Assembly: GCA_017999235.1 (NCBI GenBank)
Contig: JAGOBN010000049.1
Location: 1-11,816 of the forward strand
Length of the DNA stretch: 11,816 nucleotides
DNA from: Anaerolineales bacterium
Lineage (GTDB): Bacteria; Chloroflexota; Anaerolineae; Anaerolineales; UBA6663
Reading direction: 5' to 3'
Shown: positions 1 to 11,816 of the stretch, piece after piece
Position numbering within the stretch: the stretch's first letter is position 1
Layout: each line of letters opens with the position of its first letter
Made by a program: the position numbers and the translations under genes
Notes under the pieces: generated by a model
Databases searched by the model: none
Told to the model about the DNA's origin: nothing
The model's input: only the letters and a program-made list of their open reading frames with translations

Positions 1-2
1 TG

Positions 3-956
3 GCCCGCTGTCTGACGGAAGTGGCCGAGTTCCAGGACTGGCCGGCGATGTCCGCCATGTTCGCCCGCTCCGGCGCCCGGCCGCGGCCGGATTGGGAATT
101 GCCCTTCGCGGCCGGCCAGGCCGTGGAGGGTGACCCCGGCCTCATCGCCTACGGCGCCGCGGCCCTGGCCTGTCTGCAGATCAGCATCATCCTGGCCGAT
201 GATCTGCTCGACGATGATCCGCGCGGCGAGCACCTGAAAATCGGGGCCGGGCGGGCGGCCAACCTGGCGCTGGGCTTCCAGGGCGCGGCCGCGCAAGTCC
301 TGGCCCGCGCGCCGGTGGAACCGGCGGTGCAGGCCGCGGCCCAACGCTGTCTGGCCCAGGCGGCGCTGCGGACCGCGCTGGGGCAGGATCTGGATGCCCA
401 GAACCTGGAAGGCGAAGCCGCGTACTGGCGGGTGGTGGCGCACAAGAGCACCCCGTTCTACGCCGCCGCCCTGGAAATGGGCGCCCTGCTCGGCGGCGCC
501 GCGCCGGAGGTCTGCGCGGGTTTGCACACGGTCGGTGAGCGGCTGGGCGAGATCATCCAGCTCAACGATGACGTGGTGGATGCCTTTGAAACGCCGGCCA
601 ACCCGGATTGGTGCCAGGGCCGCAACAACCTGCTCATCCTGTATGCGCGCACCGCGTCCCACCCGGAGCAGGCCGCGTTTGGCCGGCTCCAGGCTGAGGC
701 CGCCCAGACACCGGCCGCGCTGGCGGAGGCGCAACAGCTGCTCATCCGCTGCGGCGCGGTCAGCTACGCCGTCTATCAGTTGGTGGAGCGCGCCGCCCAG
801 GCCCAGAGCCTGCTCAGCGCCCTGCCGCTCAAGGCGCCGGCCGCGCTGGCCCGGCAGCTGAACCCGCTGTCGCCGGCCCTGCGCACCTGGCTGACCGACC
901 ACGGCCTCCCAACCAGCGGCCTGCTGGTAGAATCCAGGGGTGATAATCGGGCCTAG
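3..956 (+). CDS. Polyprenyl synthetase-fold protein, ComQ-like (5' end outside window)
   Basis: All-alpha isoprenyl diphosphate synthase fold. Residues are numbered from the GTG at 21. The first Asp-rich motif is DDLLD (60-64). A GQDLD motif lies at 121-125, a KST substrate motif at 142-144, and the second Asp-rich motif is QLNDDVVD (180-187). These Asp clusters bind Mg2+ and prenyl diphosphate in the family. The Arg pair that normally follows the first motif is absent: DDD-PRGEHLKIG follows instead. That departs from ordinary chain-elongating synthases and recalls ComQ, which prenylates a Trp in the ComX pheromone. The frame stays open to the left edge, so GTG 21 is probably not the true start and some N-terminal residues are missing. 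The 3' end overlaps the histidine kinase by 17 nt, so the two are probably translationally coupled. Fold confidence is high. The ComQ-like role is an inference; an ordinary farnesyl or geranylgeranyl diphosphate synthase is the alternative. Confidence 0.8.
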   Translation, partial: ARCLTEVAEFQDWPAMSAMFARSGARPRPDWELPFAAGQAVEGDPGLIAYGAAALACLQISIILADDLLDDDPRGEHLKIGAGRAANLALGFQGAAAQVLARAPVEPAVQAAAQRCLAQAALRTALGQDLDAQNLEGEAAYWRVVAHKSTPFYAAALEMGALLGGAAPEVCAGLHTVGERLGEIIQLNDDVVDAFETPANPDWCQGRNNLLILYARTASHPEQAAFGRLQAEAAQTPAALAEAQQLLIRCGAVSYAVYQLVERAAQAQSLLSALPLKAPAALARQLNPLSPALRTWLTDHGLPTSGLLVESRGDNRA

Positions 957-3369
957 CCGCCGCTGGATCACCGACGCCACGAGCGTGTTTCTGTCCCTGA
1001 TGGTGCTGGCCATCGGGGTCTTCTACACGGTCGTCACCATCTTCTATCTCCCCAAACCCGGCTTTACCTTTACCTCCACCTGGGTGGTGTCGGCGGTGGA
1101 TATCTGCCACGACCCTTGGGGCACCTGTGCCGATGACGCGCTGCCGGTGCGCGTCGGCGACCAACTGGAACAAATCGGGGCGTTGAGCTTCGCCCAATAC
1201 CGCGCCGATTTCGGCGCCACCCCGCTGGCCGGCGCCGCCCCCGGCACGGTGGTCCCCCTCACCCTGCTCCGCGACGGCCAGCGGCTGACCGTCGCCTGGC
1301 CAATGCCCACGCCGCCGGCCATGGTGTACTGGCTGGGGGCCGCCCTGCTGCTGGCCTTTCTGCCCTTCTGGCTGGCCGGCACCCTGGTCTTGCTCTTTCT
1401 GCGGCCGCGCGGCCGGCTGTGGGCGGACCTGGTGGCCAGCAACTACCTCCTGGCCCTCTGGGCGGTCACCGGCGTCAATTCGGTTTATCAAGCGCTGGGC
1501 GTCACCTACATCTACGTGTTGGCCGCCTGGTTCTTCCCCAGCGCTTATATCCCGCTGCACCAAGAAGCGCTCGGCTACCCGGCCGCGCACGCGCGCTGGG
1601 GGCGCCGGCTGTTGGTGCTCGGCGGCGGCCTGGGCAGCCTGTTGACGTTTACACATGGCTTAAGCCTGCGCTGGTGTTCGCTGGTTGTGGCCGGCGCCAT
1701 CCTGGTGGGGCTGGGGCTGCTGCTCGCGCACGGGCGTCATCGGGTGCTGGCGATTCGCCAGATGGCGCGCCTGATGATGGCCGCCAACGTGTTGGGGTTT
1801 GGGCCGGGCATCGCCGTCTACACCCTCACCGGCCTCACCAACGGCCAAACGGAATTCGCGCCCGTCACCACCATCGCGGTCATGGCGCTGGCCATCTGGC
1901 CGGTGGGCTATGTATATGCCGCCTACCGCCACACCCTGGGCGCGCTGGAATTCCGGGCCAACCGGGTGATCACGCAATACAGCTACGCCGTCATCGTCAG
2001 CACGGTGATCGGGTTGGTGGTGGCCGCCCGCGTGGGCGGGCTGCTGCGGCCCCCGGAGCTCTTCGCCAGCAGCCTGGTGCTGGCCGGCCTGGTGCTGGCC
2101 CTGGTCTGGCTGGCGCGGCCGTTCCAGGCCTGGATGGACCGCCTGGCGTACGGCGTCGTCTACACCACTGACGACATCCTGCGCGTGATGGCGCGGCAGC
2201 TGCCAGTGGTGTCCGATGAGGCCAGTTTGATCCACCTGCTGGCGGACGAACTGCTGCCCAGCCTGCTGGTGCGCCAGTCCGCGCTGTACCGGCTGACCGA
2301 GCAGGGCCCCGAACTGGTGTATGCGCGCGGGGCGCCGGCGGATCTGACGTCCGACCAATTGCAACAGGCGCTGGCGCATCTCTGGGTCTATCAGCCGCCC
2401 CGGTCCACCGAAGCGTGGGTGCGCCTGGTGATCCCCTTGGACGTCCAGCACCGGCGCCAGGCGCTGTGGCTGCTGGGGCGGCGCGATCCAGACGATTTTT
2501 ATTCGACCCAGGACATCTACTTGCTGCGCCTGCTGGCCAACCAGATCGCCGTGGCCCTGGAAAACACCCGGCTCTACCAGATTGTCCAGCGGCAGGCGGA
2601 GGAGATGGCGCGCCTGTACGAAGCCGAGAAGGAGATCAGCCGGCTCAAGAGCGAATTCCTGGCGCGCACCTCCCACGAGCTGCGCACGCCGCTGACCGGC
2701 ATCCTGGGTTCGCTCAATCTGATTCTGGACGATCCGGAACTGCCGCCGGCCGATCAGCGCCGCTTCCAGGAAGCCGCCCACCGTTCGGCCACCAGCCTGC
2801 TGCGCCTGGTCAATGATTTGCTGGATATGGCCCAGATCGAGGCCGGCCGCCTCGCCCCCCGGCTGTGGGCCATGGACCTCCACCTGCTGGCGCGGGAGGT
2901 CTTTACCGAATTTGAGGCCCAGGCCAAACTGAAGGGGCTGGCCTTCACGGTTGCGGAGGCCCCGGAGCCGGCGCCGCTCGTCTGGGCCGATCCGGAGCGC
3001 GTCCGCCAGATCCTGCGAAATCTGGTGGAGAACGCCCTCAAATTCACGGCGCACGGCCAGGTGCGAATCTCCATCCAGCCGGAGGCACCGGCCGGCCGGG
3101 TGTCCCTGCTGGTCAGCGACAGCGGCGTGGGCGTGGCGCCGGAGCAGCAGGGGCTGCTCTTCCAGCCCTTCGTCCAGATTGACGGCGGGCCTACCCGCCG
3201 CTTCGGCGGCACCGGGCTGGGGCTGGCCATCTCGCGCCGCCTGGCGGAGCTGATGGGCGGCACGCTCACCCTGCACAGCGACGGTCTGGAGCAAGGCAGC
3301 ACGGTGACGCTGACGCTGCGTCTGGCGCCGGCCGCAGGCGCGGAGGCCCCGGCCGATTTGACCCTGTGA
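940..3369 (+). CDS. Membrane sensor histidine kinase with PDZ-like and multi-TM ComP-like sensor
   Basis: 809 residues starting at GTG 940, inside the upstream gene. Order: TM1 (about 15-36); an extracytoplasmic stretch (37-125) whose part 68-120 reads like a PDZ fold (VRVGDQL, then APGTVVPLTLLRDGQ); about eight TM helices (128-392); a GAF-like region (about 410-545) ending NQIAVALENTRLYQ; a short coiled coil (545-570); HisKA with phospho-acceptor His579 (SHELRTP); and HATPase with N-box Asn694/Asn698, G1 DSGVG (727-731) and G2 GGTGLGLA (756-763). All catalytic boxes are intact, so an active autokinase is expected. There is no receiver domain, and no response regulator lies in the window. The TM1, PDZ-like, multi-TM order resembles Bacillus ComP as I remember it, but ComP has a HisKA_3 core and this protein has a classical HisKA. 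The ligand is unknown. The coupled prenyl synthase suggests an isoprenoid or prenylated signal, which is inference. Confidence 0.93.
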   Translation: MIIGPSRRWITDATSVFLSLMVLAIGVFYTVVTIFYLPKPGFTFTSTWVVSAVDICHDPWGTCADDALPVRVGDQLEQIGALSFAQYRADFGATPLAGAAPGTVVPLTLLRDGQRLTVAWPMPTPPAMVYWLGAALLLAFLPFWLAGTLVLLFLRPRGRLWADLVASNYLLALWAVTGVNSVYQALGVTYIYVLAAWFFPSAYIPLHQEALGYPAAHARWGRRLLVLGGGLGSLLTFTHGLSLRWCSLVVAGAILVGLGLLLAHGRHRVLAIRQMARLMMAANVLGFGPGIAVYTLTGLTNGQTEFAPVTTIAVMALAIWPVGYVYAAYRHTLGALEFRANRVITQYSYAVIVSTVIGLVVAARVGGLLRPPELFASSLVLAGLVLALVWLARPFQAWMDRLAYGVVYTTDDILRVMARQLPVVSDEASLIHLLADELLPSLLVRQSALYRLTEQGPELVYARGAPADLTSDQLQQALAHLWVYQPPRSTEAWVRLVIPLDVQHRRQALWLLGRRDPDDFYSTQDIYLLRLLANQIAVALENTRLYQIVQRQAEEMARLYEAEKEISRLKSEFLARTSHELRTPLTGILGSLNLILDDPELPPADQRRFQEAAHRSATSLLRLVNDLLDMAQIEAGRLAPRLWAMDLHLLAREVFTEFEAQAKLKGLAFTVAEAPEPAPLVWADPERVRQILRNLVENALKFTAHGQVRISIQPEAPAGRVSLLVSDSGVGVAPEQQGLLFQPFVQIDGGPTRRFGGTGLGLAISRRLAELMGGTLTLHSDGLEQGSTVTLTLRLAPAAGAEAPADLTL

Positions 3370-3415
3370 GGCGCGCCCGCCTTCCCCGCCCGTGGCCGGT
3401 GCCCAGCACTTGCGA

Positions 3416-3421
3416 TACAAT
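3416..3421 (+). promoter_or_regulatory. Putative -10 box of the thioredoxin-TPR gene
   Basis: TACAAT sits 32 nt upstream of the ATG at 3448, in the 78-nt gap after the kinase stop. At 17-bp spacing the -35 position (3393-3398, TGGCCG) matches the sigma-70 consensus only 3 of 6. The same hexamer precedes the BMP gene. This suggests the downstream gene is not solely co-transcribed with the kinase. Confidence 0.4.
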
Positions 3422-3434
3422 CCCGCTGGTTAAT

Positions 3435-3442
3435 GAGGTGAG
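3435..3442 (+). promoter_or_regulatory. Shine-Dalgarno of the thioredoxin-TPR gene
   Basis: GAGGTGAG lies 5 nt upstream of the ATG at 3448 and fixes that start. Confidence 0.7.
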
Positions 3443-3447
3443 ACGGC

Positions 3448-4284
3448 ATGGGCAAAACCGAACACATCTTGGATGTATCTGAAGCGACATTTGAAAGCGC
3501 GGTCCTGGCGCGTTCGCACAGCGGCCCGGTGGTGGTGGATTTCTGGGCGCCGTGGTGCGCGCCCTGCCGCACCCTGGGGCCGCTGCTGGAGAAACTGGCC
3601 GAGGCCGGCGCCGGCGCGTTTTTGCTGGCCAAAGTCAACGCGGATGAGAACCCCGGCCTGGCCGCCCAATACGGCGTGCGCGGCCTGCCGACCGTGAAAG
3701 CCTTCCGCGAGGGCCAGGTGGTGGCGGAGTTTACCGGCGCCCTGCCGGAGCGCAAGGTGCGGGAGTTCGTGCGTAAGCTCGCGCCTTCCCCGGCCGACCA
3801 GGCGCTCAATGAGGGGCTGAGCCTGCTGGCCACGCGCCACTGGGCGCCGGCCGAAGCCGCCTTCCAGCGCGTGCGCGAGACCGAGCCCGCCCACGGTGCG
3901 GCCGCGCTGGGCCTGGTCAAGGCGGTGCTGGCTCAGGGCCGCGGCTATGAGGCCAGTGAGTGGCTGGATAACTTCCCGCGCTGTGACGAGATTGTGGCGG
4001 CCGAGGCGCTGCGCCCGCTGGCCGAGTTCTTGAGCGAGGTGGAGGGCGCGGACCTGCCCGTGGACGACGACGAGCGCGCGGCGCTGTATCACCAGGCGGC
4101 CCGGCTGCTGGCGCGCGGCCACTGGGAGGCCGGCCTAGACGGTTTACTGGACGTGCTGCGCCAGGATAAGCGCTATCGCGGCGGCGCGGCGCGCAAGGTG
4201 ATGCTGGCGCTCTTCGAACTGATGGGCGAAGCCGATCCGCTCACGCGCCAATACCGCGCCGAACTGGCGTCGGTGCTGTACTAA
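3448..4284 (+). CDS. cnoX: Thioredoxin-TPR co-chaperone, CnoX/YbbN family, with active CXXC
   Basis: 278 residues, close to E. coli YbbN/CnoX (about 284), with no signal peptide, so cytoplasmic. Residues 1-112 are a thioredoxin fold with WAPWCAPCR (active-site Cys37 and Cys40) and the cis-Pro loop GLPT (Pro81). Residues about 115-278 are helical TPR-like repeats. They carry the YbbN C-terminal pattern: an ARLLARGHWEAGLDGLLDVL helix pair, DKRYRGGAARKVMLALFELM, then DPLTRQYRAELASVLY. In the family, CnoX is a holdase that protects unfolded proteins from oxidation and hands them to GroEL and DnaK. E. coli CnoX lacks the CXXC, while this one keeps it, so true oxidoreductase activity is likely. A strong Shine-Dalgarno sets the ATG. 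The gene converges with the copper chaperone gene across 10 nt. Confidence 0.92.
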   Translation: MGKTEHILDVSEATFESAVLARSHSGPVVVDFWAPWCAPCRTLGPLLEKLAEAGAGAFLLAKVNADENPGLAAQYGVRGLPTVKAFREGQVVAEFTGALPERKVREFVRKLAPSPADQALNEGLSLLATRHWAPAEAAFQRVRETEPAHGAAALGLVKAVLAQGRGYEASEWLDNFPRCDEIVAAEALRPLAEFLSEVEGADLPVDDDERAALYHQAARLLARGHWEAGLDGLLDVLRQDKRYRGGAARKVMLALFELMGEADPLTRQYRAELASVLY

Positions 4285-4294
4285 AGCCGCCGAG

Positions 4295-4732
4295 CTATGG
4301 CGCGCGGACCTCGGCCTCCACGGTCAGCGCGCCGGCGTGCTCAAAAGTCAGCGTGAGCGGGATCTTCTCACCCACCGTCAACACGCGGGTCAGGCCGATA
4401 AACATGACGTGCTGGCCGCCGCGCTTCAACTCGGCCTGGCCGCCGGCCGGCAGGTCAACGCCCTCCACGGGCGCCATCGACATCACGTTGTCCTGCAGCT
4501 CAGTGGCATGCAGTTCCACCGCCGCCGCGATGTCGGCGGTCACGCCGATGAGCCGGTCCGCGGCGCCGCCGTTGTGGATGGTGAAATAACCGGCCGCCGT
4601 GCCGCCCACCTCGGCCTGGCCGGGGATCTGGATGACGGCGTTCTGGACTTGCAGCCCGCCAGCCGGGGCCGGCGCGCACGCCGCCAATACGATCACTACT
4701 AATCCCAGCCCGAAAACCTGACACACGCGCAT
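4295..4732 (-). CDS. Periplasmic copper chaperone PCu(A)C lipoprotein (DUF461)
   Basis: 145 residues. The N-terminus is a lipoprotein signal with lipobox LAAC (Cys19), followed by a short Ala/Pro linker and a beta-sandwich domain. The copper site fits the family formula H-x10-M-x21-H-x-M exactly: His75, Met86, His108 and Met110. PCu(A)C proteins bind Cu(I) outside the cytoplasmic membrane and deliver it to cytochrome c oxidase, often together with Sco. No Sco or oxidase subunit gene is in this window, so the client is not shown by context. The ATG is supported by GAGGG (complement of 4737-4741) a few nt upstream and by a TATAAT 36 nt upstream. The gene is divergent from the FmdE-family gene and convergent with the thioredoxin-TPR gene. 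Confidence 0.92.
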   Translation of the reverse strand: MRVCQVFGLGLVVIVLAACAPAPAGGLQVQNAVIQIPGQAEVGGTAAGYFTIHNGGAADRLIGVTADIAAAVELHATELQDNVMSMAPVEGVDLPAGGQAELKRGGQHVMFIGLTRVLTVGEKIPLTLTFEHAGALTVEAEVRAP

Positions 4733-4768
4733 GACACCCTCACTCGGTGAGAACCAGCGGCCTTCTAA

Positions 4769-4774
4769 ATTATA
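4769..4774 (-). promoter_or_regulatory. -10 box of the copper chaperone gene
   Basis: Read on the minus strand this is a perfect TATAAT in a 12-bp AT-rich patch (4763-4774), the only such patch in the 66-bp divergent region 4733-4798. The -35 position (4792-4797, minus-strand CGTGGT) is poor. The AT-rich patch could also serve the divergent FmdE-family gene. Confidence 0.55.
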
Positions 4775-4798
4775 CGCGGCGAGCGGGCGGGACCACGC

Positions 4799-5455
4799 AT
4801 GGCGCCTCAGCCGCTAGCGCTGGCCGAGCCGGGGGCCGCGCCGACACTGGCCGACCTGTTGGCGGCCTCCGCTGAATGGCATCAGCACCTCTGCCCGCGC
4901 CAGGTGCTGGGCGCGCGGATGAGCCTGTGGGCCGGCGCCCTGCTCAACCTGCGCGTGCCGCAGCCGCCGGCCAGCAAACGCCTGCTGGCGATCGCCGAGA
5001 CGGATGGCTGCTTTTTGGATGGGCTGGCTGTGGCCGCCAACTGCTGGGTGGGCCGGCGCACCTTGCGCGTGGTGGATTACGGCAAAGTGGCGGCCACGTT
5101 TGTGGATAAGGTCAGCGGCCAGGCGGTGCGGCTGGCCCCGCACCCGGACGCGCGCCAGCGCGCCGAGGCCTATGCGCCCGAGGCGCGCCACCGTTGGGAA
5201 GCCTATTTGCTGGGGTACCAGCGCCTGCCGGCCGAAGAGCTGCTGCAGGCCGAGGCCGTGCGATTGGTCCCCAGCGTGGAACAGCTGGTCAGCCGCTTCG
5301 CGGCGCGCGCGGTCTGCGCGGCCTGCGGCGAGGAAATCTTCAACGAGCGCGAGGTGGTGCGCGCCGGGGTGACCCTGTGCCAGGCCTGCGCCCACGGCTG
5401 CTACTACGAACGCCGCGCCGCGCCGGCCCGCCTCCCGGCTGCCCCGGAGCCGTGA
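4799..5455 (+). CDS. FmdE family protein with C-terminal zinc ribbon
   Basis: 218 residues, soluble. The N-terminal FmdE domain (about 15-160) shows WHQHLCPRQVLGARM (His28, His30 and Cys32; the family consensus is close to HGHLCPG). It then has ETDGCFLDG (Cys71, Asp74), NCWVGRRTL and VVDYGKVAATF. The C-terminus (173-201) is a treble-clef or zinc-ribbon module with CAAC (173/176) and CQAC (194/197). The family is named after a gene of the molybdenum formylmethanofuran dehydrogenase operon of methanogens. In bacteria it often sits near molybdenum-enzyme or metal genes, and its biochemical role is unresolved. No formate dehydrogenase or molybdopterin gene is visible here. A GGGCGGGA stretch (4784-4791) may be the ribosome site for ATG 4799. 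The stop codon abuts the stop of the convergent permease with no gap. Confidence 0.88.
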   Translation: MAPQPLALAEPGAAPTLADLLAASAEWHQHLCPRQVLGARMSLWAGALLNLRVPQPPASKRLLAIAETDGCFLDGLAVAANCWVGRRTLRVVDYGKVAATFVDKVSGQAVRLAPHPDARQRAEAYAPEARHRWEAYLLGYQRLPAEELLQAEAVRLVPSVEQLVSRFAARAVCAACGEEIFNEREVVRAGVTLCQACAHGCYYERRAAPARLPAAPEP

Positions 5456-6355
5456 TCAGCCGGCCGCCCCCCGCTGTTTGGCGCGCGCCGCGTACACGTA
5501 GAGCGCGAGCAACGTGGCCAGATACGGCACCATGCCCGTGAACTGCGCCGGCACCGCGAAGGACTGCAGAAACAGCCCCAGCCCATCGGCGAAGCCAAAG
5601 ACCAGCGCAATCAGCGCCACCCCCCACGGATTGCCCTTAACCAGAATGATGGCGGCCAGCGAGATCCAGCCGCGGCCGGCGGACATGTTTTCGGCAAACA
5701 GGCGCACATAGCCCAGCGACAGGAACGCCCCGCCCAAGCCGCACAGCCCGCCGCAGATCAGCAGCGCCTGCGCGCGCACGCCAGCCGCCGGCACCCCGCT
5801 GGCATCCAGGCTGGCGGCGTGGTAGCCGGCCGCCCGCAGCCGCAGGCCAAAACGCGTGCGGAAGATCACCCAGGCGCTGACCAGCGTGGCGGCCGCCGCC
5901 ACATAGATCATGAGGTTTTGGCCGCTGAGGATCTCACCGAGCACCGGGATCTGATCCAGCCCCGGCACCGTCAGCGCCGGGATGGCCTGCAGGCGCGGGT
6001 CGGACAGGCTGCCTTTGACGTCGAAGATCTGACGCAGGAGATACGTGGTGGCGCCGACCGCGAACAAGTTGAGCGCGATGCCGGTGACAAAATCATCGGT
6101 TTTGAGCACCACCGCGAAGAGGATGAACAAGCCGGCCAGCAGCACGCCGCCCAGCACCGCGCACAGCACGCCGGCCGCCCAGCTGCCAAAAAAATACGCG
6201 CCCAGCACCGCGCAGAACGCGCCGGCCAGCAGCATGCCCTCCATGGCGATGTTGAACATGCCGGCGTAGTACGTGAAGGCGCCGCCCAGCGCGGCCAGCA
6301 AGATGGGCGTGGCGCCGGAGAGGGTGCCGGTGATTAAACCGATGAAGATGCGCAT
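5456..6355 (-). CDS. BMP-type nucleoside ABC transporter, permease 2 (NupQ-like)
   Basis: 299 residues, multi-spanning BPD_transp_2 permease. Family signatures are [14 protein letters not shown] (34-47), the [13 protein letters not shown] helix (85-97), and [20 protein letters not shown] (221-240) followed by GNPWG, which couples to the ATPase. It would form the membrane channel as a heterodimer with the permease encoded upstream. It is the last gene of the operon BMP-ATPase-permease-permease, transcribed leftward. ATG 6355 is the first start after an in-frame stop (complement of 6365-6367). No Shine-Dalgarno precedes it, and the 82-nt spacer holds a tandem repeat. Assignment to nucleoside rather than riboflavin transport rests on the operon layout and is not proven. 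Confidence 0.93.
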
Positions 6356-6370
6356 GTCAGAAGGTTAAGC

Positions 6371-6397
6371 CACGGATTACACGGATTACACGGATTG
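6371..6397. repeat. 9-bp tandem repeat, 3 copies of CACGGATTA
   Basis: CACGGATTA at 6371-6379, CACGGATTA at 6380-6388 and CACGGATTG at 6389-6397, head to tail with no spacer. It fills the centre of the gap between the two permease genes. The first 17 bp match 13 of 17 positions of the repeat at 9026-9042. The arrangement suggests a dispersed intergenic repeat family. Confidence 0.85.
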
Positions 6398-6437
6398 CAC
6401 CATCACCAATCGCACAATCACCCATCCCCCCGCCACC

Positions 6438-7467
<1,030 letters not shown>

Positions 7468-7478
<11 letters not shown>

Positions 7479-9000
7479 GCGGCCGGCCCTCCAGCATCAG
7501 GTAGCCAATCTCCGCCACGGTTGTGTGCTCCGTCACCCGTTCGGCCACGATCCGGCCGCGATGCATCACGATCAGCCGGTCCGCCAGCAGGAACAGCTCT
7601 TCCAGATCCGCCGAGATGAGCAAGAGGGCGCGCCCCTGCGCGCGCGCCTGCAGGATCCGGTCATGCACATACTCGGTGGAGCCCACATCCAGGCCGCGCG
7701 TCGGCTGATCCAGCAGGATAAACGGCCGCTCCAGCAGCAGCTCCCGGCCCAAGATCACCTTCTGCTGATTGCCGCCGGAGAGGGACCGAAAGGGGGCGTC
7801 GGCGGAGGTCATGGCCACGGCAAACTGTTCCCGCAGGCCGGCCACAAACCGCCGCGCCGCGCCGCCATCCAGCAGCCGGCCGCCCCACCAGGTAAGCGCC
7901 GGCGTGAGCCGATGATGGGTCATGATGGCGTTCTCCAGGATCGACGCGGTCAGGCTGCCCCCCTGCCGGCCGCGGTCCTGCGCCACATACGCCATCTGCC
8001 GCCGCCGTTCGAGGATCGGCGCGTGGGTCAGCGGCTGGCCATTCACGGTCAACGCGCCGGCGCTGGGTTCGGCCAGCCCCATGAGGGCATTGACCAGTTC
8101 CAATTGGCCATTGCCTTCCACGCCCGCCACGCCCACGATCTCGCCGGCGCGCACCTCCAGGCTGGCGGCGGCCAGCTCAATCCGTCCGGCGCCGGCCGGC
8201 ACCGTCACCTGGTCGAGGCGGAACACCACCGGGCCGGGCACGGACGCGGTGCGCCGCGACCCAAACAGCACCTCCCGGCCCACCATCAGCCGCGCCAGCT
8301 CCGGCTTGGTCAGGGCCGCCGTCTCCGTGGTGGCCACATGCCGGCCTTTGCGCAGCACCGTCACGCGGTCGCCCAGGTCCAGCACTTCTTCCAGATGATG
8401 GGAGATAAACAGGAGCGTGTGGCCGGCGTCCCGCAGCCGGCGCAGCTCGCCAAAGAGCTGGGGGATCTCCTGCGGGGTCAGCACCGCCGTGGGCTCATCC
8501 AGGATCAGCACCGTCACCTGACGGTAGAGCAGCTTGAGGATCTCCACCTTCTGGCGCGCCGCCACCGAGAGATCGCCGACGCGCGCGTCCGCGGCCAGTT
8601 GAAAACCAAACTCGTCGATCTTGGCCTGCACCTGCCGGCGCGCGTCCGCGGCGCGCAGCTGGCCCAGCGGGCCGGCCGCCGGCTCCACGCCCAGGATCAC
8701 GTTCTCCCAGACCGTGTACTCGTTGATGAGCAGCAGCTCCTGGTGGACCATGCCCAGGCCGCGGGCGATGGCGTCGCCGGGGCCGCGGAAATGCACCCGC
8801 TGGCCGTCCAGCCGGACCTCGCCGGCGGTGGCCGGCTCCAGCCCATAGAGCACCTTCATCAATGTGCTTTTGCCGGCGCCGTTCTCGCCCACCACGGCGT
8901 GAATCTCGCCGCGCCGGAAGCTCACGCTGACGGCGTCCAGAGCCAGCACGCTGGGCGGAAAGACCTTGGTGATCTGGCGCAGCTCGATGAAGTCAGTCAC
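7468..9000 (-). CDS. BMP-type nucleoside ABC transporter, double ATPase subunit (NupO-like)
   Basis: 510 residues, two fused nucleotide-binding domains as in NupO and RbsA. NBD1 (about 5-240) has Walker [10 protein letters not shown] (38-46), Q-loop Gln87, a weak signature LSVAARQ (144-150), Walker B LILDEP with Asp168/Glu169, and H-loop His201 or His202. NBD2 (about 258-505) has a degenerate Walker A (GVEGNGQ, 303-309), a canonical LSGGNQQ (417-423) and [12 protein letters not shown], where Gln442 replaces the catalytic Glu. NBD1 Walker A with the NBD2 signature gives one consensus ATP site, the usual asymmetry of this family. The start is GTG: an in-frame stop lies 3 codons upstream and no earlier start is possible. 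There is no clear Shine-Dalgarno. Second gene of the operon. Confidence 0.95.
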
Positions 9001-9025
9001 GGCGTTTCAGGCGGCAGCGGTTAAA

Positions 9026-9093
9026 CACGAATGACACGAACTGGCCCGAATGGCCAGATCCCGTGCCATTCGTGGACCTTCGTGCCATTTGTG
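9026..9093. repeat. Palindromic repeat in the BMP-ATPase spacer
   Basis: CACGAATGACACG (9026-9038) is inverted against CGTGCCATTCGTG (9062-9074) with one mismatch. A second, directly repeated arm CGTGCCATTTGTG lies at 9081-9093. Nested inside is a perfect 6-bp hairpin, CTGGCC-CGAAT-GGCCAG (9041-9057). In the leftward operon mRNA it lies just after the binding-protein stop codon. There it could form a strong stem-loop that stabilises the upstream message or attenuates the downstream genes. Confidence 0.75.
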
Positions 9094-9114
9094 GCCAATT
9101 CTAGGTATGCAAGG

Positions 9115-10131
9115 TTACGGCTGGTAGCGTTCGATTTTGAGCTTGCCGGAGATGATGTCCTGGCGGATGGCCATGACTTTGTCGATGCTGGCCTGCGGCA
9201 GCACCTTGATCTGGGCTTCAAAGACCATATCCACGCCGCCCTGGGCCAGGCCGTCTTCGATGACCTGGCCGGGTTTGTAGGTGCCGTCGGCGATGGTCTG
9301 ATACACGGCCTCGATGGAGCGGCCCACGTTCTTGACCATACTGCCGGCCACGAAACCGGGCTCGAGGTCGTTCTGGTTGGTGTCCACGCCAATCGCGTAC
9401 AGCGCGCGCTCCTTGGCCGCCTGCAGCACGCCCAGGCCAGCCGCCGCCGCCACCTGGAAGACGATATCGGCCTTCTGATCAAACAGCTGCAGGGCCGCCT
9501 GCTTGCCCTTGGCGGCGTCATCCCACGCGCCGCCCAGGTATTTGCGCTCCACCTGGATGGCCGCGTCCACCGAGTGCGCGCCGTTCTCATAGGCGAACAA
9601 GAAGGCGTCCACCACCGGGTCCACATCACCGCCGACGACGCCCACCACTTTGTCGGCGTTCACGTTCTTGATGGCGGTATCGGTGGTGAGCAGGCCGGCC
9701 GTGACGCCGGCCAGGTAGGCGGCCTCTTCCTCAATGTAATCCACCGAAGTGATGGTGCTCTTGGAATTCTGGACCACCGTGTCCAGGTTGACGAAGATCT
9801 TGGCGGGGTTCTCGTCCGCGATGGCCTTCAGCTGGTCTTCAAAGCCGTAGGAGATCACGAAGATCACGTCCGCGAACTCCGCCGCCGCCTTGAGCGACGG
9901 CTCATATTTGGCGGCGTCGAAGTTGGCCTCGATGACGCGCGTCTCCAGGCCATACTGCTGGGCGATATTGTCCAGGCCGGCCTTGCCGGAGTCGTAGAAA
10001 GCGTTATCGCCGAGCGCGCCGTTGATCAGGTACACCACGCGCTTGGCGGCGGGGGCGGGTGTGGCGGCGGGCGCGCAGGCGCCGAGCAACAGCGCGGCGA
10101 GCGCCACAATCGAGAACAGACGGGTTTTCAT
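9115..10131 (-). CDS. BMP family substrate-binding lipoprotein, nucleoside ABC importer (PnrA/NupN-like)
   Basis: 338 residues. Lipobox LGAC (Cys19) is followed by an Ala/Pro/Thr linker and a type-1 periplasmic-binding fold of the BMP/PnrA class. Family elements are NGALGDNAFYDSGKAGL (37-53, ligand-loop region; SFN is more usual where AFY stands), VISYGFEDQL (92-101), VVGVVGGD and a DAFLFAYENGA helix (162-185), AIGVDTNQ (246-253, Asp250 expected to touch the ribose) and MVKNVG (265-270). It would capture nucleosides outside the membrane and deliver them to the two permeases. Purine or broad nucleoside specificity is the family default; riboflavin is a known alternative. It is the first gene of the four-gene operon. 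ATG 10131 is backed by AAGGAGT 7 nt upstream and a TACAAT box. Confidence 0.94.
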   Translation of the reverse strand: MKTRLFSIVALAALLLGACAPAATPAPAAKRVVYLINGALGDNAFYDSGKAGLDNIAQQYGLETRVIEANFDAAKYEPSLKAAAEFADVIFVISYGFEDQLKAIADENPAKIFVNLDTVVQNSKSTITSVDYIEEEAAYLAGVTAGLLTTDTAIKNVNADKVVGVVGGDVDPVVDAFLFAYENGAHSVDAAIQVERKYLGGAWDDAAKGKQAALQLFDQKADIVFQVAAAAGLGVLQAAKERALYAIGVDTNQNDLEPGFVAGSMVKNVGRSIEAVYQTIADGTYKPGQVIEDGLAQGGVDMVFEAQIKVLPQASIDKVMAIRQDIISGKLKIERYQP

Positions 10132-10138
10132 AGGGCTG

Positions 10139-10145
10139 ACTCCTT
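10139..10145 (-). promoter_or_regulatory. Shine-Dalgarno of the BMP gene
   Basis: The minus strand reads AAGGAGT, 7 nt before the ATG at 10131. It is the strongest ribosome site in the operon, fitting the high expression needed for a binding protein. Confidence 0.75.
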
Positions 10146-10161
10146 GTCAATGGGTATTGGC

Positions 10162-10167
10162 ATTGTA
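10162..10167 (-). promoter_or_regulatory. Putative -10 box of the BMP-ABC operon
   Basis: The minus strand reads TACAAT, 30 nt upstream of the BMP start codon, in the 97-nt gap 10132-10228. No good -35 hexamer lies at 17 bp (10185-10190 reads GGGGCG). The predicted leader of about 20-25 nt leaves no room for a riboswitch, so any control would act through protein factors. Confidence 0.4.
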
Positions 10168-10228
10168 CCTCGTGCCAACGCCGGCGCCCCTGCAGGCAAA
10201 CTGGCGGCCCGGAGATCGGTTGCCCCCT

Positions 10229-11815
10229 TTACGTCCCCTGGTTGATCAAGGGGAGATAGATTTTCACCGGCGCGGCGGTGGGCGCCACAAAGGCCTGGCC
10301 GTGGTCCAGCCCCAGCGCCACATTCCCCGTCGCGTCCACCGCCTGCACCACAAACTCCACCGGCTCCAGCGGCAAGGCCGTGTTCAACGCCGCCGTCCGG
10401 CTGGCCGCGTCATACGGCAGGTCCAGCTTCGTCCAGGTCCCGCTCGAGAGCGGCCGATACAGCACCACCACCCGCGCTACGCTCCCCCGGTCATCGGTCA
10501 CCAGTACCTGGAACGTCACCCGCGCGTCACTCTCCAGCGTCGCCGTGACCGCCCACAGGCTCGGTGCGACAAAGTCTTGGGCTTCGAACGGCGCGTAGTA
10601 GATATCAAAGTCCAGGTGGGTATACAACCGCTCCGTCCCCGTCACCGCCCCGCCGGCCCGGAACTGACCCGGCACCACCACCAACCGCTCATGCCCGACC
10701 CCGTCGATCCCCAGGAACCGATTCACGATCGCCACGGTCGCCGGATACAGTTCCCCCCGATCTGTAAACTCCGGCTCTGTCGGATGGTAGCTCGTCGCAT
10801 CCGTGATGGTCTGCGCGATCAAGGGATCAAAGCCCGTGATCTCAGTGAAACTTCCGCCCGTCCACAGCACCCCCTGAGCATACACCCCCGTCTGCGTGAT
10901 GTTCAGGCTTGCCTGCGGCTGAACCGGCCGGCCGCCCGCCGCGAACACGTCGGTGCTCCCCGCCACCGTGTAGTACGTGCCCCGCGACCCCGTCGTCGGC
11001 GTGTAGGTGAAGTCCAAGCTGAGCTGCTGGAGCGCAGCAGTCCCACTCGCCGCCACCCCCAAACCGGCCGGCCCTTCCAGCGGGCCGGCATTACCCGCCG
11101 CCGTCACGCTCGCCCCGCCAAACGGCGTGCTGGAAGGCCGCGGCACGCTCACCCCCAGCATCGGCAGGCCGTAGTACGTCATCTCGCTGAGCACCTTCTC
11201 GTCATATAAGCTGAACGCTCCCGCCGCCAGCGAGTTGAAGTACAACTGCTTCGCCCGCATCAAGGCCCACCCCGCCGTCGGCGGCCCTTCACTCCAATCC
11301 GCCAACTCCCCCACAAAGTTCACCATCAACCGCTCGGAATACGCGATCAGGTCGGAATCACCATACCCATATCCCGTGTTTCCGATGAACGTCGCCCGCC
11401 GGCTCAAAAACGCCTGCGCCCAGTCCCCCCCGGCCTGCGGCAGGCCGGCCCCGTCCGGCACACTCAGCCCGCTATGGCAGCCCACCGAGAAGATCAGCGA
11501 CCCGGAATAGTCCGTGAACGCCGCCGCGACTTCACTCGCCAGCACGTCCGGCCCTTCATTCGGGAAGAACTCGGCCTGGGTGAAATGCGCGTTGAGGGAA
11601 ATCAGCCCCGGCGCCGTATCCCCCAGGCTCCCCGGCAGGCCCAGCGCCCCGCGGGCCTCCACCCCCGTCCAGGTGTTGCTCACCAGCGGGTTCACCAGCG
11701 TCACCCACTCCGGGGTAAGTCTGAGCCGAACGGCATAGAACGGAATCAGCGGGATCAGCACGCCAAAGCCCAGCAGATCGACGAAGACGATCAGCAGCAG
11801 CACGATGATGCGCCG
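10229..11815 (-). CDS. Chimeric frame: MFS transporter TM1 joined to a truncated C25 (gingipain-like) peptidase
   Basis: Frame open to the right edge; residues are numbered from GTG 11803. Residues 1-37 (plus RRII upstream) match TM1 of a DHA1/TetA MFS transporter: IVFVDLLGFGVLIPLIPFYA, then LTPEWVTL. From about 41 the text becomes a C25-like cysteine peptidase: ISLNAHF (His73), FSVGCHSG (Cys109), WAQAFLSRRATFIGNTGYGYG, then ISYSERL-like and GLPMLGV blocks to about 217. The 36-residue His-Cys spacing is close to that of gingipain R (33). Residues about 225-410 are an unassigned beta-rich stretch. Residues about 413-510 look like an Ig-like domain, and the tail is VKIYLPLINQGT. The signal peptide and N-terminal half expected of a secreted C25 protein are missing. 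This is either a recombination product or an assembly join, and secretion and activity are doubtful. The direct repeat at 11680-11699 marks the switch. Confidence 0.75.
   Translation of the reverse strand, partial: RRIIVLLLIVFVDLLGFGVLIPLIPFYAVRLRLTPEWVTLVNPLVSNTWTGVEARGALGLPGSLGDTAPGLISLNAHFTQAEFFPNEGPDVLASEVAAAFTDYSGSLIFSVGCHSGLSVPDGAGLPQAGGDWAQAFLSRRATFIGNTGYGYGDSDLIAYSERLMVNFVGELADWSEGPPTAGWALMRAKQLYFNSLAAGAFSLYDEKVLSEMTYYGLPMLGVSVPRPSSTPFGGASVTAAGNAGPLEGPAGLGVAASGTAALQQLSLDFTYTPTTGSRGTYYTVAGSTDVFAAGGRPVQPQASLNITQTGVYAQGVLWTGGSFTEITGFDPLIAQTITDATSYHPTEPEFTDRGELYPATVAIVNRFLGIDGVGHERLVVVPGQFRAGGAVTGTERLYTHLDFDIYYAPFEAQDFVAPSLWAVTATLESDARVTFQVLVTDDRGSVARVVVLYRPLSSGTWTKLDLPYDAASRTAALNTALPLEPVEFVVQAVDATGNVALGLDHGQAFVAPTAAPVKIYLPLINQGT
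11680..11699. repeat. 8-bp direct repeat at the MFS/C25 junction
   Basis: TCACCAGC at 11680-11687 and again at 11692-11699, encoding T35-L36-V37-N38 and P39-L40-V41-S42 on the minus strand. It coincides with the point where the MFS-like text ends and the peptidase text begins. Microhomology of this kind is a common footprint of illegitimate recombination, though an 8-mer could also arise by chance in GC-rich DNA. Confidence 0.5.
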
Positions 11816-11816
11816 G

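Follow-up and report, generated by a model that had tools for sequence, protein, structure and literature searches.

In Bacillus, the ComQXPA system couples peptide modification to sensing: ComQ attaches an isoprenoid to the peptide ComX, which is sensed by the kinase ComP. In the available text of a 2014 census, comQXPA-like loci were reported from no organism outside the Firmicutes (PMC4008528). According to the portions available of a second report, PalP-PalX-PalQ of Paenibacillus comprises a kinase, a precursor and a prenyltransferase resembling trans-isoprenyl diphosphate synthases (IDS), and PalQ, which adjoins the precursor and the kinase, is a proven C-terminal-Trp prenyltransferase (PMC10853753). 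The locus described here lies in an 11,816-nt stretch of DNA from Anaerolineales bacterium (Chloroflexota; Anaerolineae; Anaerolineales; UBA6663), hereafter the window, corresponding to positions 1 to 11,816 of the forward strand of contig JAGOBN010000049.1 (assembly GCA_017999235.1). To our knowledge, few studies have addressed quorum sensing by peptides in Chloroflexota. The first two genes of the window, encoding a prenyl-synthase-fold enzyme and a sensor histidine kinase, are probably the right-hand part of a three-gene cassette of precursor peptide, prenyltransferase and sensor kinase, and would constitute a Trp-prenylated pheromone system working like ComQXPA.

To compare the locus with its relatives, three Chloroflexota loci were first found by sequence search and a profile of their three synthases was then applied (E ≤ 1e-35, best five candidates per genome). 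This profile detected the synthase family in 26/396 genomes of the class of genome G002 and in 6/400 genomes of the phylum, five of these six being already known. Using the window protein as the query (E ≤ 1e-25), the family was detected in 13/52 genomes of the family of genome G003. Flanking DNA was read as widely as the contigs allowed at all 26 class-wide loci and at all 11 further new loci. Two loci were not assessable for a peptide gene: the window, which starts inside the synthase, and G001, which is outside the class-wide set and whose contig ends. The nearest relatives support the Chloroflexota origin that the initial annotation had considered probable.

Directly upstream of the synthase, 34 of the 37 Chloroflexota loci contain a small open reading frame (ORF) encoding a peptide of approximately 47-69 aa with a Trp near its C-terminus. 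For example, the ORFs of L002 and L003 end AWDGWG or AWSGWSA and are preceded by a Shine-Dalgarno-like site; by eye, such a stretch precedes the ORF in 34/34 cases. Among the class-wide loci, the ORF lies upstream on the same strand in 24/26 (candidates were picked by eye on position and Trp), and no peptide was found in G304 or in G332, the synthase of which is broken. The peptide is also missing in G752:C7, where a regulator with a receiver domain and a weak Trans_reg_C match follows. The initial annotation had suggested that a peptide gene could lie upstream of the window. This proved to be the arrangement in the relatives, the window's own copy falling outside the window. As the window begins inside the synthase and 3/37 relative loci have no peptide, its locus might instead be a decayed or orphan enzyme-kinase pair without a precursor gene. 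We consider this very unlikely, given that the peptide is present not only in 34/37 loci but also in the three nearest relatives whose flanking DNA is complete (G760, G759 and G748; 50-51% identity). We thus infer a copy of this gene in the window's own genome.

Small ATG-initiated ORFs ending in Trp are common elsewhere, occurring upstream of 35/211 other genes (17%) versus 15/20 synthases, and it is therefore the profile test that carries weight. In a leave-one-out analysis, each peptide in turn was removed along with every peptide sharing 50% identity or more with it, and a profile of the others was searched against the 2,885 small ORFs found at these loci. Once training and near-identical peptides had been discounted, the removed ORF came first in 24/24 cases, with E < 1e-3 in 22 of them (the exceptions were G366, 0.39, and G064, 0.14). 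The profile of all 24 peptides found the peptide in 10/11 further loci at E values of 1.9e-4 or better, and in none of 20 other polyprenyl-synthase loci (613 small ORFs from eight genomes; best E, 0.62). Across 13 close peptide pairs, which come from three sets of related loci, dN/dS was 0.07-0.23 and 51-75% of the changes were at third positions. These values indicate that the ORF undergoes translation and that selection acts on its protein product. The peptides are one family under purifying selection.

The 24-row alignment contains one invariant Phe on the N-terminal side and one nearly invariant Trp near the end. The distance from the last Trp to the C-terminus is 0-2 residues in 26/34 peptides and up to 13 in the remainder. 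Among 218 candidates from the protein database, 67 were homologues at E ≤ 0.01; all 67 contain a Trp within their last 22 residues, and those listed are unnamed or annotated as 'hypothetical protein'. Distances between peptides correlate with those between synthases at 23 loci (Mantel r = 0.85; 0/2,000 permutations as high), although shared descent alone could give the same result. No Pfam or NCBIfam family matched over its cut-off in any of 10 peptides submitted. Similarly, no match to ComX (PF05952) exceeded the cut-off in 27 genomes, a result that is weak alone as the control genome of B. subtilis was also under the cut-off; weak matches (E 0.1-1) occurred in 10/27 genomes, none of them at a cassette locus. 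Comparison of the 24-peptide profile with five ComX sequences using hhalign gave 0.1%.

The synthase gene (3..956, + strand) is predicted to encode a peptide tryptophan prenyltransferase with a ComQ/PalQ-like function. Its 317-aa frame is open at the left edge and matches PF00348 at 62.8 bits (cut-off, 27), which bears out the initial assignment of a prenyl-synthase fold. A database protein that is 99% identical, P0130, has 322 residues and begins MYANLARCL, so the first five codons of the window's gene lie to the left of the window. The AlphaFold2 model of P0130 has a mean pLDDT of 92.5. The first Asp-rich motif (FARM), DDLLD (198..212, + strand), is followed by DDPRG in place of the canonical double Arg; DDxLD occurs in 49/49 rows of alignment A5, made up of close relatives of the window synthase. 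The second Asp-rich motif (SARM), DDVVD (567..581, + strand), has a Gln three residues ahead of it (Q-x-x-DD), and this Gln and the first Asp, Q191 and D194, are likewise present in 49/49 rows. The same Gln also occurs in aligned housekeeping synthases and so is not diagnostic of the PalQ type. The active-site surroundings had been described as non-canonical, which is correct insofar as a single Arg (PRG) replaces the double Arg and the GK of the GKxxR motif is absent, but both DDxxD motifs are intact.

Beyond the window, neither GKxxR nor a double Arg after the first motif was found in any of 26 family enzymes, whereas both were present in 11/11 housekeeping synthases, the latter being those aligned out of 20 found after fused and divergent ones were excluded. 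The Arg of GKxxR is retained in 40/49 close relatives of the window synthase. Five ComQ sequences likewise lack both, two near-identical ones having the GK without the Arg. In contrast, the SARM is intact in 26/26 family enzymes while its first Asp is lost in 5/5 ComQ. In a phylogenetic tree containing 20/26 family rows, the family synthases formed their own group with 100/100 support, apart from ComQ and from the other synthases of the same genomes, rather than grouping firmly with farnesyl or geranylgeranyl diphosphate synthases; one odd, very long row, H_G097b, was placed inside this branch. A joint clade of the family and ComQ was not rejected (approximately unbiased (AU) test, p = 0.30; quick tree, 18/26 family rows). 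In profile comparisons, the family synthase belongs to the same superfamily as ComQ and resembles housekeeping synthases at least as much as it does ComQ. Orthology of the window synthase to ComQ was thus neither supported nor rejected. The window synthase had zero matches at E ≤ 1e-6 among plasmid records, the source of the ComQ sequences.

The similarity to housekeeping enzymes and the PF00348 match would also suit an ordinary polyprenyl diphosphate synthase that sits by chance beside a kinase. Database annotations agree with such a role: where present among 120 of 611 synthases, they name geranylgeranyl pyrophosphate/diphosphate synthase or polyprenyl synthetase. Nevertheless, we regard this explanation as highly improbable. 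Canonical trans-IDS (PF00348) share the fold and both DDxxD motifs with the family, but the family lacks both GKxxR and the double Arg in 26/26 enzymes, occupies its own 100/100 branch apart from the other synthases of the same genomes (H_G097b notwithstanding), and has conserved peptide and sensor partners. Moreover, each of eight genomes has 1-5 further PF00348 genes.

The kinase gene (940..3369, + strand) encodes 809 aa from a GTG start at 940. With this start, the synthase and kinase frames share 17 nt (940-956), as the initial annotation stated, and because they overlap, no small ORF fits between them. A different choice of start would change the overlap: the database copy of the kinase, P0068 (789 aa), begins 60 nt further downstream. 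In the AlphaFold2 model (mean pLDDT, 77), a helix spanning residues 9-36, transmembrane (TM) helix 1 (964..1047, + strand), is followed by a small beta/alpha domain at residues 42-121 (1063..1302, + strand) and by long helices at residues 127-391 (1318..2112, + strand). The order of strands and helices in the small domain is PDZ-like, and its position is as in the ComP of B. amyloliquefaciens (BaComP; PMC9620489, as described in the available text); it is a candidate pheromone-binding site. Pfam backs the PDZ assignment weakly, as PDZ_2 matched 5/16 family kinases at E ≤ 1 (best, 0.0018), the window's own not among them. The order of TM1, PDZ-like segment and further helices had been correctly recognized, but by eye the model contains approximately ten TM helices, TM1 plus about nine more, rather than the nine implied by about eight after TM1. 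In the available text, BaComP has a PDZ domain between TM1 and TM2, ten TM helices and a cytoplasmic portion from approximately residue 382 (PMC9620489), and the modeled topology agrees with this description. The cytoplasmic part of the window's kinase comprises a GAF-like domain containing the family's DPDD motif (residues 437-542; 2248..2565, + strand; under the Pfam cut-off in the window protein), a HisKA dimerization and phospho-acceptor domain (2647..2847, + strand; 67.9 bits) with its His at 2674-2676, and a HATPase_c domain (2989..3327, + strand; 97.7 bits). All listed matches in a fold search with the kinase model were to the kinase core.

The relationship of the sensor to ComP was evaluated using profile-profile alignment. 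The Chloroflexota sensor profile contained 16 rows from two branches, A and B. The ComP sensor profile contained four: the comQXP kinases of Anoxybacillus, Priestia and a record filed as Stenotrophomonas, and a Lysinibacillus homologue encoded away from comQX on its plasmid. In hhalign, the two profiles matched at 99.2% over 367 columns, with 98.6 for branch A alone and 99.0 for branch B alone; a repeat run at another setting gave 98.1 over 303 columns. At the 303-column setting, the controls gave 0.1% (reversed ComP profile), 0.2% (two permeases) and 0.6-21.8% (five block shuffles). The sensors of branches A and B aligned with each other at 100%, and the GAF region had no similarity to its ComP counterpart (2%). 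The Chloroflexota sensor is thus homologous to ComP along its whole length, which bears out the ComP-like order of parts originally noticed.

A kinase with this sensor is encoded beside the synthase, or beside the regulator adjacent to it, in 23/24 class-wide loci with enough flank, and in 6/11 further loci; the gene pair is thus conserved, albeit less regularly in the further set. In the class-wide count, G377 and G026 end at the synthase, the kinase frame of G304 is split, the synthase of G332 is broken, and G097 is the exception without a kinase. Two layouts were distinguished. In layout A, that of the window, peptide, synthase and HisKA kinase are on one strand. In layout B (eight class-wide loci), the kinase has a HisKA_3-like core and is encoded on the strand opposite the peptide-synthase pair. 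All of these branch B loci (8/8) also contain a response regulator resembling the one in L002; of three scanned, two matched GerE (LuxR-type) over the cut-off and that of L002 fell under it. HisKA_3 matches at E ≤ 1 were found in 8/16 kinases. Among the best 7,992 candidates, 62 proteins carried the sensor at E ≤ 1e-5, including hybrid kinases and HD-GYP proteins, so that the outputs across the family comprise HisKA, HisKA_3-like, hybrid and HD-GYP modules. The input part is therefore common to proteins whose output parts vary, and this suggests that it is the sensor that goes with the enzyme. As indirect support only, 9/62 sensor proteins were on contigs of the same size as that of one of the 120 listed synthases, whereas 120 offset controls averaged 0.3 and never exceeded 3. 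In P0081 and P0089, the ComP-like sensor is joined to an HD-GYP output (cyclic di-GMP (c-di-GMP) phosphodiesterase); P0089 and the synthase P0155 are on same-sized contigs. In L133 (G407:C635), two sensor frames surround one peptide-synthase pair, the second being cut by the contig end, and the longest synthase frame overlaps the peptide gene.

No linked sensor kinase was found for the peptide-synthase pair in 6/35 loci: four with the ending WGW.WDW, G743, which has a regulator, and G097. These pairs may signal to unlinked kinases or may be a side branch with another use. They also fit a different explanation of the system as a whole, in which the product would be a prenylated, ribosomally synthesized and post-translationally modified peptide (RiPP) that is chiefly antimicrobial or membrane-active, with the kinase sensing it only to autoregulate production, as in lantibiotic clusters. 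The multi-Trp ending of four of the six is in keeping with this explanation, as is the ability of prenylation to raise the antimicrobial activity of peptides, noted in the available text of PMC13290415. Inspection by eye, with no search for such families, revealed no gene dedicated to export, immunity or proteolysis at the loci whose genes were listed; one membrane protein adjoins the synthase in L128. Most loci hold peptide, enzyme and sensor together. We therefore consider an antimicrobial role unlikely.

The four loci with the multi-Trp ending, L127, L129, L131 and L132, encode peptides ending VWGWxWDW and possibly represent a different use of the same chemistry. Their synthase adjoins a response regulator, which in L127 is OmpR-type by Pfam; three of them are near respiratory complex I genes by eye, and none has this type of kinase in the stretch read. 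In G097, a second, very divergent synthase-fold gene (L053:11731-12618, - strand; DDLVDDD and HDDLQD) lies approximately 2.8 kb from the kinase-less pair.

Returning to the pheromone system, the gene set probably attaches an isoprenoid to a peptide that the neighboring kinase senses, much as in Bacillus with ComX. The precursor gene would be located just left of the window and is predicted to encode approximately 55 aa, with a leader of the form xxIxxF...L..LxxLT and, no more than a few residues from the C-terminus, a Trp that often forms part of W-x-G-W-x. By analogy with ComQ and PalQ, the synthase-fold enzyme would hold a prenyl diphosphate via its Asp-rich motifs and move the prenyl chain to the Trp indole rather than onto isopentenyl diphosphate. 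The C-terminal piece would then be cleaved off, leave the cell and bind to the neighboring kinase through its PDZ-like, multi-TM sensor, presumably serving in quorum sensing. The kinase would in turn signal to a regulator, of which none is adjacent in the window and a LuxR-like one is next door in branch B.

The initial annotation had also proposed that the kinase might sense a non-peptide isoprenoid. In this scheme, the enzyme would make a free isoprenoid, or prenylate a small molecule or free Trp, and the peptide would be accessory or regulatory. In its favor, both Asp-rich motifs are intact in the window, and the fold matches of the synthase model include Ord1, within the common band only; Ord1 farnesylates free Trp, according to the available text of PMC13290415. 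The peptide is nevertheless present in 34/37 loci, and the C-terminal-side Trp is among its two most conserved residues. A free isoprenoid signal is thus now the less likely branch of that proposal, and overall quite improbable, somewhat more so than the antimicrobial role.

The favored pheromone cassette is ComQ-ComP-like but is not a member of ComQXPA. In both systems, a small precursor with a C-terminal Trp (seen in relatives of the window), a prenyl-synthase-fold modifier and a sensor kinase are side by side, and the sensors, consisting of a TM helix, a PDZ-like domain and further TM helices, are homologous. Branch B also resembles ComQXPA in that its kinase core is HisKA_3-like and its locus has an adjacent regulator of LuxR-like type. 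The comQ-comX loci used for comparison were from plasmid records of Bacillus velezensis, Anoxybacillus, Priestia, Lysinibacillus and the record filed as Stenotrophomonas. The ComX sequences of Anoxybacillus, Lysinibacillus and Priestia end YWM, IWN and YWK, respectively, with Trp second to last, as in 12/34 of the new peptides. Membership is excluded because the peptide is unlike ComX, the gene order is X-Q-P rather than Q-X-P-A, the SARM is intact whereas that of ComQ is degenerate with the FARM kept, and the window's kinase has a HisKA core without a linked regulator instead of HisKA_3 with a NarL/LuxR-type ComA. The two systems also differ in phylum and in the grouping of their enzymes, notwithstanding the unrejected joint clade. 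As described in the available text of PMC10853753, PalP-PalX-PalQ likewise combines a kinase, a precursor and a trans-IDS-like prenyltransferase acting on a C-terminal Trp, and PalQ has a conserved SARM Asp with a Gln three residues ahead of the SARM. Compared by description only, PalX differs in having an NHLP leader and in ending in Trp itself, whereas 26/34 of the new peptides have residues after the last Trp.

Two plasmid records yielded separate observations. Plasmid pREC3 of Acaryochloris marina (L074; typed as conjugative) encodes a ComQ-like synthase at 4833-5780 (58 bits), near which no ComX-like ORF was seen by eye. In L076 (CP031730.1), filed as Stenotrophomonas, the plasmid comQ and comX are nearly identical to those of Lysinibacillus, and the record may be mislabelled or contaminated.

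In the remainder of the window, the next + strand gene 3' of the kinase encodes a thioredoxin/TPR protein, and no response regulator adjoins the kinase, as originally noted. Further right, a small frame on the opposite strand resembles a lipoprotein gene by eye; it is followed by an FmdE-type gene and by ABC importer-like genes (by eye). A 528-aa open frame at 10229-11815 (- strand) has no Pfam match; by eye, it has an MFS transporter-like start followed by a sequence resembling a secreted peptidase or surface protein, and may be a fused gene or a chimera near the right edge.

No paper describing this system in Chloroflexota was found in the open-access literature, judged by title or abstract. 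Annotation hides the system, as the listed precursors are unnamed or 'hypothetical protein' and those listed enzymes that have a name are called geranylgeranyl diphosphate synthase or polyprenyl synthetase. We tentatively suggest, while holding it somewhat less likely than otherwise, that Chloroflexota of the Anaerolineae group possess a separate class of Trp-prenylated pheromones. This class would have its own precursor family, a prenyltransferase recruited from diphosphate synthases independently of ComQ, and one ComP-like sensor module on varied outputs. These would be c-di-GMP-linked HD-GYP proteins, kinases of plain or hybrid type, and ComP-like HisKA_3 kinases paired with LuxR-like regulators. 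If so, cell-cell signalling by prenyl-peptides would be older and more modular than the Bacillus case suggests. The proposed pheromone system, if correct, would make available a signal that can be tested in organisms mostly known from metagenome-assembled genomes. It would also reveal new peptide tryptophan prenyltransferases that act on short substrates, and would allow one to ask whether the sensing of prenyl-peptides had two origins or passed from one phylum to another.

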